Positions 51,419-61,093 of a stretch of 64,000 nt of DNA are shown here, piece after piece. The stretch is from an uncultured Holophagaceae bacterium (GTDB lineage: Bacteria > Acidobacteriota > Holophagae > Holophagales > Holophagaceae): positions 1 to 64,000 of the forward strand of contig CAISFO010000022.1 of assembly GCA_903884655.1 (NCBI GenBank), written 5' to 3'. Positions within the stretch are counted from its first letter, which is position 1, and each line of letters opens with the position of its first letter. Position numbers and translations under genes: made by a program. The notes under the pieces were generated by a model, which had not been told where the DNA came from, did no database searches, and saw only the letters and a program-made list of their open reading frames with translations.

Positions 51419-51613
51419 ATACACCTACCCAAGCCAAGGACCTGGGCTGCCGAGAAGCCGTGACGGCCTGGCTGGGCTTGCGCTGGTGGGACAAGCCCGG
51501 AAATTGATGAGTGGTGACAGGGTGATCGATCATGTGCAGAGTCAAATCTGTTCACAGCAAACTCACGTCAAACGATTTCCCTTCCCGATAGGACGAACAC
51601 GGAGGCTCATTCG

Positions 51614-52503
51614 ATGCGTTACCTTGTTCCGGCCCTGGTGTGTGCCCTCCTGGGACTCGGGGCCGGTTCTGCCTACGGGAGCCAGTCGGCCCCTCCACTT
51701 GGCGAAGTCCACGGCCGGATTGCGGAACTGCAGAGTCTGGTCGCGGCCGACAACAGGGCTCACCCCACCGCCGCTGTTGCCTCGGCTGAGGAGGCCCTGG
51801 GCCTGCTGGCGACTGCCCCCGACCCTAAGGCCGAAGCCTGGTTCCTGCTTGCCCTGACCCGGGACCTCATCGCTCTGGATGAACTCCCGAAGGCCACCGA
51901 CGTTTTGGAACGGGGACGGAGGCTCGTCGCGCGCACGAACGACGAGCGAACCCGCCTGCTGCTGGAAATCGAGGCGGGGGCCCTCTTGAACAAAATGCAA
52001 AAGTACACAGAATCCAGGGCCGTGCTGGCGGCGGCCCTTCCTCTGGCAGAATCGTTCCATCAGGCCAATCCGGGGGACTACGAACTGGCGCTCGACCTTG
52101 GACGGGGCTACCGGCTGCTAGGCCATAGCCTCAATGCCAGCGGGAATTTCCTCGAGGCCATCAAAGCCTATCAAAGGGCCCAGGCCATCGCACGGGATCA
52201 GGGGGACCGACGGGGCCAAGCCCAAGTGCTCAACAAGATGGGGGACCTTTACACAAACCTTGGCCAATTCGCAGAAGCCAGGTCAGCGCATCTTCAGGCC
52301 ATAGACATGGCCGAAACCATTGCAGATGTGGTCCTGCAGGCCAGGTGCCATATCTCTCTGTCGGATACCTATGGGAGCCAGCATGAATCCGACCTGCAGC
52401 TGAAAGAACTGGACAGGGCTTCCGCCCTGGCTGTTAAAGCTGGGGAAACCTATCTGCAGCTGGTCATCACCATTAATTTAGCGGACGTTCACCTTCTGAG
52501 AAA
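51614..52503 (+). pseudogene. TPR sensor-like protein, 5' half (split by element)
   Basis: The intact gene product would be 556 aa; this is its first ~297 codons. A signal peptide (MRYLVPALVCALLGLGAGSA) is followed by TPR-type helices (EEALGLLATAPDPKAEAWFL; FLEAIKAYQRAQAIARDQGD; AEARSAHLQAIDMAETIADV). GGAGG precedes the ATG. At 52499-52503 the frame runs into AGAAA and then foreign sequence, continuing only to a stop at 52597. The reading frame resumes without loss at 58343, so the interruption looks recent. Confidence 0.85.
52499..52503 (+). repeat. Direct repeat AGAAA, left copy
   Basis: This five-base repeat also occurs at 58338-58342. Removing one copy plus 52504-58337 restores the codons CTG AGA AAA AAT TTC in the TPR gene. 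It may be a target-site duplication or a crossover core. Confidence 0.75.
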
Positions 52504-52633
52504 TAATGACGCACAATGCCACCAACCCTGTGGCCCCCTGAATACAATCAACCCAGACACGATTTTAAGTATTGATTTAATAGATCTAACCAATTGATAC
52601 CTGTCGCCACCTGACCCAGGATGTGCAGGCACC

Positions 52634-52704
52634 GATGTACCGGCAGGTGCACCTAAGTGTTGATAAAGGAAGGGTGATTTTCGTATGTGTGGCGCGATGT
52701 GGCG
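52634..52704 (+). repeat. End-proximal motif pair, left copy
   Basis: GATGTACCGGCAGGTGCA (52634-52651) and GTGGCGCGATGTGGCG (52689-52704). The right end carries GATGTACCGCCAAGTACA and GTGGCACGAAGTGGTG in the same order and orientation. The pairing suggests binding sites for an element-specific protein. Confidence 0.6.
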
Positions 52705-52779
52705 TGGAAATTCCATCCTGTTCGACCCTCAGCCATCACGTCATGAAAACCAAGGATTGATGCGGATCTTCAGCGGGCC

Positions 52780-53695
52780 ACTAGGGTGGCCCGCTTGATT
52801 TTGCTGGATCTTAAGGCTGTTGTTGGGCCTGATGCTATATCTGGCGGGTGTTTGAGGGCCTTTATCCTATAGAGCATGTCCCTTCCGATAGGGGTCTTCC
52901 CCTGGCTAGGAGGGAGAGCACTCCACCACCTCCAAGCCTTAGGGAGACTGGTTGCTCCTACTTGGTAAAACTTAGTATTTACGGGCTTCTCCACTGATTC
53001 ACGGTAGTGGCCCGCCTGATTTTGCTGGATCTACATGCAGGAAATACACGGGAATCCAAACCCGGTGTGGGTTTATGCGCATGGAGGCAATAATGCAAGG
53101 CCCTTCCGAGAGGACTGGCCGCTGGTTTGGAGGTGGAGCACTACACCACCACCTGGGCTCAGGAGGGCTGTCGGATCCTGCTCTGCAAAACTGTTGATTG
53201 ACGGGCTTCTCCAGCGATTTACCATAGCGGCCCACCTTATTTTGCTGGATCTACATGCCGTCATAGCCGTGAACACATACCTGGCAAGGGTTTGCGAGCA
53301 TCGGTCGTAAAGTGCAAGGCCCTTCCGAGAGGACTGGCCGCTGGTTTGGAGGTGGAGCACCACACCACCTCCTGGGCTCAGGAGGGCTGTCGGATCCTGC
53401 TCTGGAAAACTGTGGATTGACGGGCTTCTCCAGCTACTGGCGGTGGTGGCCCGCCTGATTTTGCTGGATCTACATGCCGTCATAGCCGTGAACACATACC
53501 TGGCAAAGGTTCGCGAGCAAGGGACGTATGGTGCAAGGCCCTTCCCCGAGGACTAGTAGGGAGGTTTCGGAAGCGGAGCACCACACGACCTCTCAGGCCC
53601 AGGAGGACTGTCGGATCAGAGTTAGATTGCCCGAGATGGACTGGGTGTTCCAGCGATCGACGGTCGCGGCCCGGTTGATGCTTCGGGCACCGTAA
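52780..53695. repeat. Tandem array of about 220-bp units (four units plus part)
   Basis: The phrase TTTTGCTGGATCT preceded by GGCCCGCC-type sequence recurs with starts near 52797, 53018, 53238, 53457 and (diverged) 53677, a period of 219-221. Internal blocks are nearly identical between some units, e.g. ACATGCCGTCATAGCCGTGA in units 3 and 4 and AAGGCCCTTCCGAGAGGACT in units 2 and 3. Each unit has a hairpin around GGAGGTGG...CCACCTCC. Frames shift and stops occur between units, so it looks noncoding. Not CRISPR: no short repeats with unique spacers. Confidence 0.8.
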
Positions 53696-53790
53696 CCCTC
53701 AACGCGTCTCGACCCTACACCTGACATGGCCTTGACGATGAGTCTGCGGCGGGGCCTAGGATCCACCCTTACCTGGTCTGTTACCACCGT

Positions 53791-54549
53791 TCACTCGGCA
53801 CGACTTGTCCTGATCCTAGGGTCTGTCACGCTCGTCCAAATCACCCAATGGAGGCCACGGATGGAAGCGTTCCATGGGGTGCCGCCATCGGGTGTATACG
53901 CATAGAGCTTGGCGATGGTCTCAAGGTGAGAAGTATCAGGGGTGGTCGTGCCGGTCCGGAGAGGATGGATACCTTGGTAATCATTCAGGAGCAGGGCAAC
54001 CTTTTGGTTATCCATGTCATCGAGGGGCATATTCCCCAACAGAGGAAGGACGATGCGCTCGATCTGGGAGACGTAGATATTGAACGTCGATTCTTCTACC
54101 TGACCAACCTGAGTGGCTTTGAACTGTTCCCAGGCATTTTTCAAGGAAATGGGAGGGCATTTCCCGAAAAATTTGCCGTCAAAGAGCATGCCATCGATCT
54201 TGCCCTTGCGTGTTCGAGCTACCTCCCACTTGTTGGTCTTGAGGTCCACTTGGACTCGAATTCCTTCAATTTGAACACGGGTCTTCAGCGTTTTGCCCAC
54301 CCGAAACACACCGGGAACCCTGCTGCTCCTGTTAGTTGGTTCCACGATAGGGTTTTTCCTTGGGCGTCCACGCCCCCGCTTTTTGGGGGAAGAAGGCTCA
54401 GAGGGCTCAAATTCTTTCTCAAAGTCATCCGTGAAAAAGTCACCTTTCAAGATGGCTTCCTGGAGAGACCCTTTCTTTGTCGAGGTATCAATTCGAGCAA
54501 GGACCTTACTGAGTGTGTTTCCGATCTTGGTGCGCTTCTTGTCGCTCAT
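53791..54549 (-). CDS. AT-hook protein with integrase-like core-binding region, no catalytic domain
   Basis: A 252-aa protein. Residues ~1-60 are charged; KKRGRGRPRKNP near residue 57 is a classic AT-hook. Residues ~135-195 (SLKNAWEQFKATQVGQVEES; NIYVSQIERIVLPLLGNMPL) look like the SAM-like N-terminal domain of phage-type tyrosine integrases. The catalytic R-HxxR-Y domain is missing: the chain ends in TSVTDPRIRTSRAE and the next frames down are not integrase-like. It is either a truncated integrase or an accessory DNA-binding protein. Last gene of a three-gene overlapping operon, next to the 220-bp array. Confidence 0.65.
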   Translation of the reverse strand: MSDKKRTKIGNTLSKVLARIDTSTKKGSLQEAILKGDFFTDDFEKEFEPSEPSSPKKRGRGRPRKNPIVEPTNRSSRVPGVFRVGKTLKTRVQIEGIRVQVDLKTNKWEVARTRKGKIDGMLFDGKFFGKCPPISLKNAWEQFKATQVGQVEESTFNIYVSQIERIVLPLLGNMPLDDMDNQKVALLLNDYQGIHPLRTGTTTPDTSHLETIAKLYAYTPDGGTPWNASIRGLHWVIWTSVTDPRIRTSRAE

Positions 54550-54896
54550 GCAACCTCCTTGTAGTTGACGGGGAGAACGTCAGTTGGGGTGATGTGCCTG
54601 GCTATCAACCACGCCAAGCAACGGTTTGGACGGTAGAGGGTGGGGCCCTTGCCGATGCGCTTGTAAGGCATTCCTAGGCTTCGAAATCCACCGAGGCCTG
54701 CTGGGGTGAGGCGAAGACCAAGAGAGTCTTCGATGATCTTGAGCAGGCGTGGTTCCTTCACCAGTTCCTGAGAGTCAGGAGGCAGAAGTGGAGAGAGGGT
54801 GCAGAGATTCACGAGGACCTCCATGACGTGGTTAGATGGGTCGGTTGGAAGGAGAGACAAATACTTCAAGGTGTGAGAGATGGGAGACCGGCTCAT
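54546..54896 (-). CDS. Small excisionase-like HTH protein
   Basis: A 116-aa protein. The C-terminal segment LGMPYKRIGKGPTLYRPNRC, continuing LAWLIARH, matches the pattern of AlpA/Xis-type winged helices, where a G-P-x-Y-R-x-x-D-x-L-x-WL motif ends the domain. It overlaps both neighbours by four bases. A role in excision or element gene control is inferred from this resemblance and from context. Confidence 0.6.
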   Translation of the reverse strand: MSRSPISHTLKYLSLLPTDPSNHVMEVLVNLCTLSPLLPPDSQELVKEPRLLKIIEDSLGLRLTPAGLGGFRSLGMPYKRIGKGPTLYRPNRCLAWLIARHITPTDVLPVNYKEVA

Positions 54897-55285
54897 GCAG
54901 CACCGTTAGGGGCCGGGTTCAGGCCGAAATCGGAGAGCAGCTTCACGGGATCCATCCTCTGGTTATGTCCGTTTCGAAAACTGCGGAGGATCAGCCACTC
55001 CAGACAGGCAGCCAAGTCGTAGCGAATCCTGCGTTCGGAGAACCGGACAGAAGGCATTCCATCGGCTCGAAATTGGCAGAGAAGGCTGCGATTGAGCTTT
55101 ATGGCGAGACGCTCTTTGGCGGCTTCAGCCAATTCCTCTGCGTTCACAAGGCGATAGACCGTATTCCGATACAACGACGATGTGTGCACCTGGATATTCG
55201 AAGGCGTGCCTACCTGGCGGACCGGGGTGGGTGTAGCCAACGCTGGGCTGGTTGTGAGGGGGATGATGTTCGTGGTGGGTTCCAT
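54893..55285 (-). CDS. Second small excisionase-like HTH protein
   Basis: A 130-aa protein with FRADGMPSVRFSERRIRYDL followed by AACLEWL, again the winged-helix excisionase pattern (G-M-P-x-x-R-x-S-x-R-R-I-R-Y-D). About 40 Pro/Thr-rich residues precede it. First gene of the operon that continues into the other HTH gene and the integrase-like gene; divergent from the helicase gene. Confidence 0.65.
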   Translation of the reverse strand: MEPTTNIIPLTTSPALATPTPVRQVGTPSNIQVHTSSLYRNTVYRLVNAEELAEAAKERLAIKLNRSLLCQFRADGMPSVRFSERRIRYDLAACLEWLILRSFRNGHNQRMDPVKLLSDFGLNPAPNGAA

Positions 55286-55594
55286 GCTGGGCTCCTTGTT
55301 GAATTGGGTTTTGTGGGTTTCTGTTGGGTTCGAACCGTCAACATGGAAATACTAAGCCCAACCAGACCAGCACTTGGAAACCGAAGCGCTCAGCGAAAGT
55401 GGGCCCTGCGGGCCTGTCTTGAACCTTCACGTCCACACCTCCTTCAGGCCAAGGGCTGAGGTAGGTCACCCGCACCGGACGGGTCGGAAGACCGGAACCC
55501 CAGTTCGGAGGGACGCCGAACTGGGCTTGGGTGTACAGAGGGAGCAAAGTCATGTTGGAAATTGGGATAAAATGGGCAAAAGAGTAGAAATAAA
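55286..55594. promoter_or_regulatory. Divergent promoter region of the element, with strong hairpin
   Basis: There is no supported gene between the HTH operon and the helicase gene. CCCAGTTCGG (55499-55508) pairs with CCGAACTGGG (55516-55525) around 7 bases, and a TAAAAT-rich leader lies directly before the helicase ATG. The hairpin could be an operator for one of the small HTH proteins or for the AbiEi-like region, or a transcript attenuator. Confidence 0.5.
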
Positions 55595-58198
55595 ATGACT
55601 TATAATCTGAACCCATTCCTTGCCAAGGCCCCCTGCTTCAGCCGGGAAGCTCTCGTTGCCTACCTCAAACGGTCCCGGCAGGCCACAAAGCCAGACACGG
55701 CTGCAACCTCCATCATCAAAGGCCAGAAACGCAAAGGGCCAGAGGTGCGCCTCTTCGAGGAGGTGTGCCAAGACACGTATGTGAATAACGAGACACTTCG
55801 GGACCTGACAGCAATTGACTGGTTGCCATATCTACTGCCACAGGTTGCCGCTGAAGATGCTGTCATCGGATTCCATGCAGCACTCTGCCTTTTGCAAGGA
55901 AGGCCGGCACCAGACGAGATCCAGTTCTACAGCAAGTCAAAGGCCCGGTGGGAATGGCGTGGCAAGACCTTCGAAGCGGTGGTATCGACGCACCGGCCTG
56001 GGCCTCAGCCAAAGGATGGAATACCTGAGTGGAAGATCGTGGCAGTTCAGGTCGCCGGTTCCATGCAGGAGGTTCGAGTCTCCTCGCCAGAACAGACGCT
56101 CGTGGATCTGTTGGATGGACGAACTCGGGGGCAGCAATTTCGGAATTCGACTACCTCAGAACACTCTGACTCACCAACCGTGTTGACTGAATCCGAAGAT
56201 GATCTCGAACCATCGAACGAAGATGAAGTTCAGTCAACGCTGGATCCTTCATTCATGGAGAGTTGGAAACAACTTTTAACCTGGAAATCTCAACTCGATT
56301 TCAAGTTATTGAAGGGCTACCTCACTGCAATAGGGACGAGGATTACGATATCCAAGGTGGGCTATTTCTTGGAGAACCACTTCCAAAACCTAGGCTTGAA
56401 GTCTGTATATCTATCGAGCCTGAAGCCTAGATGCGAACGCCCGAGTCCTTGGAAAAAAGGAGTTAGAGGTGATCTCAATTATCGGTGGATGTTGAAAATA
56501 CCAGGAGAACTGGCTCACGTATCACAGAGCCAAGGATCTGCCCCGAGGCTTCCACGATTGAAGGGCAATGACTGCCTGAAGGACATGAACCTTCTTCGAC
56601 AACTGCAATTGGACTTTGGCAGTCGACGGTATCCCGCATTCCGTCCGGGACAGGAGGCGTTAATTCGAGATGTGCTTGATGGCCTGGATGCGATGGGCGT
56701 CTTTCCGACAGGAGCGGGCAAGAGTCTGACTTTCCAATTCCCATCGACTCTATTGAATGGATTGACTCTGGTCATCATGCCGTTGATTGCTCTCGTGAAC
56801 AACCAACTTCAGAAGGCCACGGACCTTGGGGTGAAGGCTTTGAGTCACCGCCAGATTGGAAACGTGGATGAACGGGAGAGAGCCATTGGAATGATCCAAG
56901 AGGGCTCCTTGAACGTGCTCTTCATTTCGCCAGAAGCCCTCTTCCCCCTTCTTGGGTCCCTAGCGATATTGAAGGAACGAGTGGTTCAGATCGTAGTTGA
57001 TGAGGCCCATACGATTCTGTCCTGGGGGAAGGATTTTCGATTCTCGATGCAGAAACTCAAACGCCTTCGGGATATCTGGCCAAACACACCCATCCTGGCC
57101 CTAACTGCAACAGCTACTCCCGAGGATCGGGAAGAAATCATGAGTGAACTCGGGTTCCGTATGGGTACTCAGCCATATGTCGGAACTACTTTCCGGAAGG
57201 CCCTATATCTCCAGCATCAAGTTACAGGTCACGACTTCCATGAGAAGCTTTCGGCCTTGGTCGAATTCATCAGAATCCAGGATGAACATCGTGGAGAGCA
57301 AGTTTGCGGAATCGTTTACTGCAACTCGAAAGACGAAACCGAGAGAGTTGCGCACGAGCTTCACCAGTTATTTGGGGAATGCGCATCTGCCACTCTTGAA
57401 TCGGGTGATGTGATCCCAGATAGCCTTGGGGCGAGGAAACCGTCTGGCAAGAAAAGCACCTTCTGTTTGCCACAGGAATCGAGAGTCCAGTGCTACCACG
57501 CTGGATTAGCAGATGGATTACGTGAGCAATCAGAAGCTGTTTTCATGGGTAGGAAGGACGCAGTGCTCGTGGCAACCATTGCATTCGGGATGGGGATCGA
57601 CAAGGACAATATCCGGTTTGTAGTGAATTTTGGCCCCCCATCATCAATTAACGAATATGTTCAGCAGGTTGGTCGCGCAGGTCGAGATGGCAAGGATGCA
57701 GAATGTCTTCTTCTTCACTCACCGCAGGATTGGGATGTGTGGGTGGGACATCTAAATTCCTCAAGGAAGAAAATAGAAAAGTATGCGGGGACAACCGCAC
57801 CCCACATCCTGCGTGAGAAGCGAACACGCTTAGGCAAGCGCAGAGATGAACTCGCCCATCTAAAACGGCTGATATGGAAATCGGACTGCTTCCATCAGGC
57901 GATCGGAGCACATTTTGGTGAAGCTATGGGTGCTTGCCAGGAGCATTGTGTCAAGTGTCAGGTGCCAGAAATTCACAGACTCAGATGGCGCGAATCGAGG
58001 GAGAGTCAGGTCGACCTTGGAGTGGCCATGTCCGATCTCGAACTCTTGGAAGAAGGATTTCTCCCGGTCATCGAGAGTGGCCCACCACAGCAGGAATCGG
58101 AGGACTTGGACTGGGATCCGAACGACCTTACAAACGATATCGAACTGCCCGACTTTGACGAACAACCTGATGGTGACGACCTGCCTCCACCAGAGTAG
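55595..58198 (+). CDS. AbiEi-like domain fused to RecQ-family DNA helicase
   Basis: An 867-aa protein. Residues ~1-330 resemble AbiEi, the antitoxin/repressor of type IV toxin-antitoxin systems: an N-terminal helical region, VIGFHAALCLLQGR, VRVSSPEQTLVDLLDGRTRG and a late ISKVGYFLENHFQNLGL...YRWMLKIPGEL pattern. Residues ~350-700 are RecQ: GVFPTGAGKS (Walker A, about 369), VVDEAHTILSW, ALTATATPED, IAFGMGIDKDNIR and YVQQVGRAGRDG. A Cys cluster (CFHQAIGAHFGE, CQEHCVKC) forms the zinc site. No HRDC domain; the tail is very acidic. No AbiEii-type nucleotidyltransferase gene is present. The helicase is certain; the AbiEi part is a pattern-level call. Confidence 0.78.
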   Translation: MTYNLNPFLAKAPCFSREALVAYLKRSRQATKPDTAATSIIKGQKRKGPEVRLFEEVCQDTYVNNETLRDLTAIDWLPYLLPQVAAEDAVIGFHAALCLLQGRPAPDEIQFYSKSKARWEWRGKTFEAVVSTHRPGPQPKDGIPEWKIVAVQVAGSMQEVRVSSPEQTLVDLLDGRTRGQQFRNSTTSEHSDSPTVLTESEDDLEPSNEDEVQSTLDPSFMESWKQLLTWKSQLDFKLLKGYLTAIGTRITISKVGYFLENHFQNLGLKSVYLSSLKPRCERPSPWKKGVRGDLNYRWMLKIPGELAHVSQSQGSAPRLPRLKGNDCLKDMNLLRQLQLDFGSRRYPAFRPGQEALIRDVLDGLDAMGVFPTGAGKSLTFQFPSTLLNGLTLVIMPLIALVNNQLQKATDLGVKALSHRQIGNVDERERAIGMIQEGSLNVLFISPEALFPLLGSLAILKERVVQIVVDEAHTILSWGKDFRFSMQKLKRLRDIWPNTPILALTATATPEDREEIMSELGFRMGTQPYVGTTFRKALYLQHQVTGHDFHEKLSALVEFIRIQDEHRGEQVCGIVYCNSKDETERVAHELHQLFGECASATLESGDVIPDSLGARKPSGKKSTFCLPQESRVQCYHAGLADGLREQSEAVFMGRKDAVLVATIAFGMGIDKDNIRFVVNFGPPSSINEYVQQVGRAGRDGKDAECLLLHSPQDWDVWVGHLNSSRKKIEKYAGTTAPHILREKRTRLGKRRDELAHLKRLIWKSDCFHQAIGAHFGEAMGACQEHCVKCQVPEIHRLRWRESRESQVDLGVAMSDLELLEEGFLPVIESGPPQQESEDLDWDPNDLTNDIELPDFDEQPDGDDLPPPE

Positions 58199-58220
58199 AA
58201 TCTAGGCAGAGCGCCATACG

Positions 58221-58271
58221 GATGTACCGCCAAGTACATGGAGATTTATGGATGAGTGGCACGAAGTGGTG
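58221..58271 (+). repeat. End-proximal motif pair, right copy
   Basis: GATGTACCGCCAAGTACA (58221-58238, itself a hairpin ATGTAC/GTACAT) and GTGGCACGAAGTGGTG (58256-58271), matching the left-end pair at 52634-52704 in order and orientation but with shorter spacing. Confidence 0.6.
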
Positions 58272-58337
58272 CAACAAATCTCGATCATGCCTCTAAGCCG
58301 TTTGTTGCCATATTTTTAAAATTCATTCGTCATTGAA

Positions 58338-58342
58338 AGAAA
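58338..58342 (+). repeat. Direct repeat AGAAA, right copy
   Basis: Matches 52499-52503. Coding resumes in the TPR frame directly after it. Confidence 0.75.
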
Positions 58343-59123
58343 AAATTTCCAGGCGGTCCTGAGATATACCGATGCAGTCCTCGCTGACCCGAAAATCTCC
58401 CAATATCCATCCTTCCTGGCGTACTCCCGAATCAACAGGGGTATCGCCCTGAACCGCCTGGGCCGCCATACAGAAGGACTGGAGTCCATGCAGGAAGGGG
58501 TCCGGCACTTGAACGCGACCAGCTTCCGAAACGATAAGGCCGAAACCATGGGCAACCTTGCGGAGGAGTTCGCCTTCGCCGGGGACTTCCGCCGGGCCTA
58601 CGAGGCCCATCGGGAATTCAAGGCCCTCAGCGACGATCTGAAGCAAATACAGGACAGGAAGCGGGTGGTGGAGGCCAGCGCGGCCTTCGAGGCCGACAAG
58701 AAACAGATCCAGATCGAAGCTCTGCAACGGGAGAAACGGTCGCAGGCCCGGCTGATGGGACTCTGGATCGCTTTGGGCATGCTGGGCTTCACCATCGCTG
58801 GGGTGCTGGTGCTGAGTCGGCGCCGGATCCGGCAGGCCCACCAGGATCTCCAGGAGCTCCATGAGAGGAACCTCACCCTCATCGGCGACCTGCAGACCGC
58901 ACTCACCGAGGTGAAGACCCTCCAGGGACTCATTCCCATTTGTGCCCACTGCAAGAAGATCAGGGACGACCAGGGCTTCTGGAACCAGATGGAGAGTTAC
59001 ATCCAGAGCCGCTCCGAGGCCACCTTCAGCCATGGCATCTGCCCCGACTGCGCCAAAGAGGTGATGGCGGAACTCCAGCACCTCTATCCGAAGGCCAGGG
59101 CTGACGCCAGCCTGTCTGAGTGA
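58343..59123 (+). pseudogene. TPR sensor-like protein, 3' half (split by element)
   Basis: Continues the gene broken at 52503. A last TPR-type pair (YPSFLAYSRINRGIALNRLG; AEEFAFAGDFRRAYEAHREF) is followed by a long helix, one membrane segment (LMGLWIALGMLGFTIAGVLV), a short coiled coil and the C-terminal Cys motif LIPICAHCKKIRDDQGFW with HGICPDC. That motif is common at the ends of bacterial signalling proteins and may bind metal. An ATG at 58488 could express a membrane-plus-Cys-motif fragment by itself. Confidence 0.85.
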
Positions 59124-59875: not shown

Positions 59876-60043
59876 GGATGCGATCTTAAGCTGAGTCTGG
59901 GAACCAGATGGAAACTCCCACCTGGGGCGTCGGAGCCGTCGGCTCCGGCCCGGTCACGCGGCGGCACGAGTCTGCCCACTTCGGTCAGCAAGGTTGCTAC
60001 ACGGCGCGGGTTTCTCCAGCCAGAACGACCACGTACACGGGAC

Positions 60044-60160
60044 TTATTTGACCCCGTCCATCCACATGATCACCTTCAGCAGAAGGTAGGCAAAAAATAA
60101 TACGGCTGCCAGATAGGACCATAAGAGGTACCTATGTGGGCGGGATTCTTGTGTCGTCAC
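60044..60160 (-). CDS. 38-aa single-helix membrane peptide
   Basis: A GTG-started frame reading MTTQESRPHRYLLWSYLAAV, then LFFAYLLLKVIMWMDGVK and TAA. A GGGGGAGG ribosome site sits 5 bases ahead of the GTG, much stronger than chance. One hydrophobic helix covers nearly the whole peptide. The peptide's partner or role is unknown; its neighbours give no hint. Confidence 0.6.
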   Translation of the reverse strand: MTTQESRPHRYLLWSYLAAVLFFAYLLLKVIMWMDGVK

Positions 60161-60691
60161 GTGGACCTCCCCCTTGAGTGAAATATGGTGATTTACAAAT
60201 CTTGATCACCACAATACTTCACTCGAAGGCCCCTGGCACATTGAATTCCTGGACAAAGGTTCTCCGGTTTTCCGCTTCCGAAGGCTGCTTCCGTATCCAG
60301 AAGAAGACATGCAGCCGTTCGACCGGGTCACTGGGAGAATCAAGTCGACTGCAAGGTTTCCCAGGGGCGGCCGTCAAGTCGAGGATCCCGGCCAGGGAAG
60401 CCAAGACGGGGAATGTCGACCGCGGAAGAAGGCAACCGGGTTCCCCTTTTGCTTCTCGATGCTGTGCCACCGATTGAATGCGACCGCGTGCCGGGCGCCA
60501 AGAATGATCCTCCGCGGATTGCCAAGCATCAACCTGGTGCGCACCAGCATGCCGATCTGCATCCATTCCCGGTGGCAGATGGCAAGGCTGTCCACTTCTA
60601 GGGGGTTGCACTTGCCGCAACGAAGACTATGTTTGGAGGAAATATGGATGAGACTCTATCTCATTTCCTGATTTTTTCTTAAGGGTTTGCG
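60161..60691. other. 530-base stretch without a supported gene
   Basis: Open frames exist on both strands (e.g. 60219-60620 minus, 133 codons), but none has a convincing ribosome site or family resemblance. Some peptides (LERLHVFFWIR-like text, LAICHREWMQIGMLVRTRLM in another frame) read like fragments of a decayed minus-strand gene. An AAGGG ribosome site and AT-rich leader for the next gene lie at 60660-60691. Confidence 0.35.
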
Positions 60692-61093
60692 ATGGAACAC
60701 CTGCAGGAAGAGTCGGACCTGAAAGTTAGGTCTAATGCAATCAAAGTTTTGATCGCAGATGATGACCCGATGTTTCTCGATACGATCACCCAACAGGTCC
60801 AGGCCATGGGGTTCGCGTCTCAGCAGGCAAAGGATGGATGGGAAGCCGTTGAAACCTTCCAGGAAGGAGCCGGTTCCATTTCTCTGGTGATCCTGGATGT
60901 GGAGATGCCCCGACTTGGCGGCATCGACGCGGCCCTGAAGATCCGGGAGTTGGATCCGGCGGCCAAGGTGATCCTGTGCAGCGGGAACACCAGGGCTGAT
61001 GTCTGGAAAGCGAAACCCAATGGTTTCATTCTAAAATCTTTTTTATTCATTGATTTACGAAGAGTTGTTCAAACTCTTTTATTGCCGGTTTGA
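60692..61093 (+). CDS. Single-domain response regulator
   Basis: A 133-aa receiver: VLIADDDPMFLDTI, LVILDVEMPRLGG (phospho-acceptor Asp about residue 70), VILCSGN and a Lys in FILKSF. There is no output domain. The last ~20 codons (near 61020-61085) are unusually AT-rich for this region. It stands alone, with the ATP-grasp-like gene downstream. Confidence 0.82.
   Translation: MEHLQEESDLKVRSNAIKVLIADDDPMFLDTITQQVQAMGFASQQAKDGWEAVETFQEGAGSISLVILDVEMPRLGGIDAALKIRELDPAAKVILCSGNTRADVWKAKPNGFILKSFLFIDLRRVVQTLLLPV

Follow-up and report, generated by a model that had tools for sequence, protein, structure and literature searches.

A RecQ helicase core joined to an AbiEi antitoxin-type module on an inserted element of a Holophagaceae bacterium

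We describe a gene encoding an AbiEi antitoxin-type module followed, in the same open reading frame (ORF), by a RecQ helicase core, carried on a small inserted element in a 64 000-nucleotide stretch (positions 1–64 000 of contig CAISFO010000022.1, hereafter the window) of the genome of an uncultured Holophagaceae bacterium. AbiEi and RecQ are both known families, and their combination in a single conserved protein appears to be undescribed: no account of such a fusion was found among the matches listed in the full-text literature, subscription papers and preprints lying outside the scope of that search. Our preferred reading, put forward tentatively, is that the protein is a helicase addressed to its own element by the AbiEi module, i.e. 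a self-repressing, tethered motor. A preliminary description of this DNA, made from its letters alone, had claimed an AbiEi-like region fused to a RecQ helicase, the presence of the gene on a small element, the absence of an AbiEii partner and the lack of any named system with this architecture, all of which agree with the analyses presented here, both modules being identified within the single ORF (Table 1).

The N-terminal half of the protein is an AbiEi-type module, composed of a winged helix–turn–helix (wHTH) and a C-terminal antitoxin domain, the two domains by which the AbiEi family is defined. This identity was reached by three routes, including alignment with the AbiEi proteins of abiE loci and structure comparison with VIA-align 2, which both agree with the two-part AbiEi layout previously proposed for the approximately 330 residues that precede the helicase. 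The predicted structure of residues 1–64 contains three helices (6–11, 17–26 and 33–46) and two strands (54–58 and 61–64). Residues 1–308 share their two-domain layout with the AbiEi proteins of S. agalactiae (6Y8Q) and M. tuberculosis (Rv2827c, 1ZEL), from which the fusion differs in carrying a helicase, in an insertion within the C-terminal domain (residues 177–212, of low confidence in the model and partly acidic) and in having no AbiEii found in its genome. In structure comparisons of the kind proposed in the preliminary description, AbiEi matches of the N-terminal model were obtained on a second look with VIA-align 2, whereas no Foldseek match reached E 1e-3, the top-ranked entry being a nucleotidyltransferase toxin. 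Sequence searches of solved structures, using as queries the N-terminal part and a standalone AbiEi profile, returned no AbiEi.

The helicase core (residues 346–790) closely follows the span of about 350–790 for which complete RecQ motifs had been claimed, and contains FRPGQ, PTGAGKS, DEAH and GRAGRDG as well as a C-x15-C-x3-C-x2-C zinc motif. It passes the NCBIfam model TIGR00614 (262.9 bits versus a cut-off of 219.8) and thus belongs to the RecQ family, but misses the RecQ equivalog TIGR01389 (300.9 versus 640.2 bits), while the Pfam zinc-binding model stayed below its cut-off (17.8 versus 25). The best solved-structure match by sequence was the RecQ structure 1oyw (E 3e-57), that of E. coli RecQ. 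The fusion shares with it the helicase and zinc motifs, but is unlike it in lacking RQC and HRDC and in having an insertion at about residues 587–621, which splits RecQ matches in two, an acidic tail and the AbiEi module in front. Neither RQC nor HRDC was matched in the window protein in a Pfam scan up to E 1, nor in any of the seven fusion proteins scanned by Pfam, this one included, out of the 12 described below, so that both the cut-off and the domains expected of a housekeeping RecQ are missing. The tail of 78 residues holds 24 acidic (D/E) versus four basic (K/R) residues, and acidic residues outnumber basic ones in all nine proteins aligned (P0002, P0003 and P0007 being excluded), from 8 versus 4 in P0001 to 24 versus 4. 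The segment joining the two halves (residues 310–332) has a predicted local distance difference test (pLDDT) score below 50, and the link between them is probably flexible.

With the N-terminal part as the sole query, 5.8 billion proteins were searched three times, yielding P0001 to P0005, P0006 to P0010 and P0011, respectively, and hence 11 further fusion proteins (12 with that of the window). Both modules are complete in seven of them (P0001, P0004, P0006, P0008, P0009, P0010 and P0011), and with eight proteins holding both modules a chance join is ruled out. Across the 36 pairs formed by these eight and P0005, pairwise identity ranged from 31 to 81% in the N-terminal part and from 47 to 94% in RecQ, and the identities of the two halves correlate closely (r = 0.97); the two parts have therefore evolved together, as a single protein. 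By every sequence collection searched the fusion gene is rare. Of 396 genomes sampled from the phylum, the window's own was the sole carrier, six other matching genomes containing open frames of 272–339 amino acids only. Searching 396 genomes with the RecQ core at E 1e-60 returned the window alone, a result that leaves room for sister RecQs since the cut-off is strict and ordinary RecQ matches break at the insertion. The N-terminal part had no match in phage or plasmid records, and plasmid matches to the whole protein reached 80% coverage in none of 242 records and, among the 15 matches listed, start at least at residue 306. The fusion was not found in genome contigs (two alignments) or viral contigs (three queries), by non-exhaustive scans that rely on exact short patterns; the one locus they returned, L033, was discarded as a false match (47 residues, glycosyltransferase-like by eye).

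No PF08843 (AbiEii) match was detected in the source genome, whose 98 contigs total 3.92 Mb at a completeness of 93.6%, and the locus was ruled out as an AbiE system because the adjoining AbiEii gene that marks this type IV toxin–antitoxin system is lacking. The closest standalone relatives in the bacterial family are the AbiEi proteins of abiE loci. Among seven standalone abiEi places, a downstream AbiEii was full-length in four, split over two frames in one, present as a 45-residue piece at a contig end in one and not detected in the last (genome G428). In genome G097 (L013, 2295–3226) the match to the AbiEii gene next to AbiEi falls into two pieces that lie in different frames, and this copy may be broken. 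The abiE locus of genome G340 (L018, 79–1296) lies close behind what appears by eye to be a tyrosine integrase gene, and abiE may there be element-borne.

Upstream of the fusion gene, a perfect inverted repeat of 27 bp, CCCAGTTCGG-N7-CCGAACTGGG, stops 69 nt short of the start codon and represents a candidate operator. Shuffling the intergenic stretch 500 times never produced arms of 10 nt with a spacer of up to 15, and with a spacer of up to 40 they arose in one of 100 shuffles. The palindrome, allowing spacers of 0–30, occurs only once in the 3.9 Mb genome, on the element. Half-sites at up to one mismatch numbered 15 in the window versus 8.7 expected, a count reached by 4 of 100 shuffles and hence not clearly enriched. 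The abiE loci of the family have palindromes of their own: two of six carry a 10-N5-10 palindrome at −43 with 9/10 arm positions matched, and a weaker form was seen by eye in three more (L011, L015 and L018). Its form AAAGnCCTAA-N5-TTAGGnCTTT, found at 939–963 of L016 and, in L017, ahead of an abiEi gene that starts at 2280 on the minus strand, is a candidate AbiEi operator of this family's lineage, for whose AbiEi proteins short-spaced palindromes are therefore a plausible operator type.

With a RecQ core devoid of its own winged helix and HRDC, preceded by the winged helix of AbiEi, the simplest reading is a motor that is addressed to a sequence of its own element and represses its own gene. 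From the modules observed, their joint inheritance, the lack of AbiEii and of RQC and HRDC, and the palindrome, we infer the following steps. The wHTH, which is predicted to bind DNA, would bind the palindrome and thereby repress transcription of the fusion gene, as AbiEi does in abiE operons, while also replacing the missing RecQ winged helix in loading the helicase onto DNA. The tethered motor would then serve the upkeep of the element, be it copying, excision or recombination, and the low protein level together with the tethering would keep the helicase off the rest of the genome. AbiEi is known to autorepress via inverted repeats, for which the full-length protein is needed (PMC3985639, PMC7319586). 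The nearest parallel is AbiE on ICESsuHN105, an integrative and conjugative element (ICE) of S. suis, where AbiEi likewise resides on a mobile element, binds palindromes in its own promoter and in the element's oriT, and affects excision and copy number (PMC11062541); it differs in that this AbiEi is a separate protein of the AbiE pair, the available part of that report describing no helicase fusion.

Several points weigh against this reading. The fusion palindrome differs in sequence and spacing from those of the family's abiE loci and lies further upstream, and it also differs in sequence and spacing from the published AbiEi boxes (11-bp arms, N27; PMC3985639). It could instead serve the divergent 130-aa gene, and no promoter-like site was found around it. 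Further perfect 10-bp palindromes exist on the element (52772–52795) and at −221 of the abiEi gene of L013, so that the pattern alone is no proof of an operator. The S. suis AbiEi showed no binding to the attachment sites of its ICE (PMC11062541). The predicted proteins P0002 and P0003, the two closest relatives, as well as P0005 and P0007, begin inside the N-terminal part and have no winged helix, which may reflect a contig edge, the choice of start or a real loss. The full-length model, with a mean pLDDT of 57, is too poor to show the contact between the modules. Finally, the integrase is a remnant, so that this copy of the element may not be mobile, and genomic context was read for this one copy alone.

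The element interrupts a TPR gene, as deduced from an intact paralogue that matches the window in two separated parts (its residues 1–312 at 51572–52507 and residues 308–555 at 58332–59075). The G + C content is 0.505–0.581 in seven 1-kb bins over the element and 0.60–0.70 in most other bins of the window, with a further low value (0.547) at 60001–61000, outside the element. The terminal inverted repeat (52505–52511 and 58328–58334) is accompanied, further inwards at each end, by a direct repeat of 21 nt (52631–52651 and 58218–58238; the two copies are 81% alike), an arrangement reminiscent of tyrosine-recombinase elements with their end and arm sites. The gene order comprises the integrase remnant and the 116- and 130-aa genes on one strand, then the fusion gene on the other. 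The remnant showed no Pfam catalytic-domain match, and thus the complete tyrosine integrase expected of an active integrative element is lacking; its relatives are two distant full-length frames (464 and 466 amino acids) among 77 genomes of the family, with none in plasmids. Between the left end and the remnant, on the side where one would look for the catalytic domain, a unit of about 219 bp is repeated in tandem four to five times, in degenerate form, over 52746–53672, with no other copy in the genome. The 116-aa protein has no relatives in phages, and the 130-aa protein was seen in its own genome only (1 of 77 in the family), with one weak match in 72 556 plasmids. At the junction of these two genes, a 54-nt stretch (54890–54943) is 80% identical in three congeneric genomes, in two of which it lies inside a 547-aa ORF. 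Whole-element DNA gave matches of just 49–87 nt in seven other genomes of 60, no related element being seen at the four of these seven places inspected, and there was no Rfam match on the element.

Table 1. Features of the fusion gene, its upstream region and the inserted element (window coordinates).
Feature	Position	Strand	Remarks
AbiEi–RecQ fusion gene	55595..58198	+	867 aa
Winged-helix DNA-binding part of AbiEi module, residues 1–64	55595..55786	+	Helices and strands predicted; aligned to AbiEi proteins from abiE loci
AbiEi antitoxin-type C-terminal domain, about residues 65–309	55787..56521	+	
RecQ helicase core including zinc motif of four cysteines, residues ~346–790	56630..57964	+	
Acidic tail, residues 790–867	57962..58195	+	Place where RQC and HRDC would follow in RecQ
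Perfect inverted repeat, candidate operator	55499..55525	.	
Inserted element	about 52505..58334	.	Ends with 7-bp inverted repeat AATGACG/CGTCATT
Interrupted TPR gene, 5′ part	51614..52507	+	57% identical to intact paralogue on other contig
Interrupted TPR gene, 3′ part	58332..59123	+	72% identical to intact paralogue on other contig
Tyrosine integrase remnant	53791..54549	-	252 aa; SAM-like core-binding domain, Pfam PF14659 22.9 bits versus cut-off 22.6
116-aa protein gene	54546..54896	-	No family match
130-aa protein gene	54893..55285	-	Weak helix–turn–helix, Pfam HTH_17 E 0.11, below cut-off

A rather unlikely alternative is that the fusion is a defence effector, in which AbiEi would sense, or be occupied during, an invasion and free the RecQ core to attack replication forks or the DNA of phages or plasmids, the gene being immune cargo. 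It is in keeping with this that the gene is rare, patchy and on a mobile element, that its ORF is intact while the integrase has decayed, as expected of cargo paying its way, and that AbiE is itself a phage-defence system (PMC3985639). PADLOC ranked the helicase best with the models of DpdF and PsyrT, both RecQ-like helicases of defence systems, but any RecQ core would give such a match. DpdF is the helicase of the Dpd 7-deazapurine system, and the fusion resembles it in its RecQ-like core (288.6 bits to PDLC02864) but falls far below the NCBIfam cut-off (NF041063, 143.3 versus 550 bits). Scanning three further ORFs of the element with PADLOC gave no match, and hence neither another Dpd component nor a second recognised defence gene. 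With no phosphoribosyltransferase (PRTase) match in the fusion, and no DprA-like match in its 116- and 130-aa neighbours, the features of PsyrTA and RqlHI are also lacking, and identity with either PsyrT or DpdF was ruled out. Moreover, the fusion protein contains no nuclease or toxin domain in a Pfam scan, and the evidence from the neighbourhood comes from the window copy alone. Phage-satellite hotspots (PMC9122126) and ApsAB (PMC11096173) involve other domains and were set aside as comparisons. Of the two roles suggested in the preliminary description, element maintenance is slightly better supported than the anti-phage role, given the palindrome confined to the element and the S. suis precedent (PMC11062541); control of the helicase by the AbiEi module, also suggested there, is a hypothesis.

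It is improbable that the protein is a fused toxin–antitoxin, with a free RecQ core that would be genotoxic, an AbiEi half that would restrain it in cis, and N-terminal proteolysis that would release the toxic helicase. RqlHI, which we take to be of the same kind as PsyrTA, a RecQ-like toxin with its antitoxin, provides the closest likeness. RqlH is a genotoxic RecQ-like helicase held by its partner RqlI, a regulatory protein with a predicted DNA-binding helix–turn–helix (PMC4670107), and both the low-confidence link and the absence of the winged helix from some predicted relatives would suit such a release. In the fusion, however, the partner module is AbiEi and lies in the same chain, and the toxicity of RqlH is due to its PRTase domain (PMC4670107), in place of which the fusion has a tail of 78 residues; furthermore, the known targets of neutralisation by AbiEi are nucleotidyltransferases rather than helicases. 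Least probable of all is an ordinary accessory RecQ, a repair helicase on a decaying element with the AbiEi-type wHTH as a mere DNA-binding domain and no part in regulation or defence, as the reduced integrase, the absent RQC winged helix and another RecQ in the genome (40–42% identical, matching in two pieces) might suggest, since retention of both AbiEi domains, beyond the wHTH, in eight proteins argues that the antitoxin-type domain is used.

It is possible, if somewhat doubtful, that the fusion represents a new class of antitoxin-gated helicase, in which AbiEi, recruited from toxin–antitoxin systems, would act as both the cis DNA address and the leash of a RecQ motor guarding a mobile element, through maintenance or through attack on competing DNA. 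Neutralisation and regulation by AbiEi-type proteins are still partly open, and for the AbiEi homologue MenA4 the antitoxic mode could not be identified (PMC11375011). The fusion is a compact single-gene protein whose DNA address and motor can be studied separately, and its gene is one more element-borne candidate that merits testing for a role in defence or maintenance. If the antitoxin-gated class is real, AbiEi would serve DNA enzymes in general as a control domain, beyond its role as the antidote of AbiEii, and a helicase addressed to its own element would place a DNA-unwinding motor under antitoxin control.
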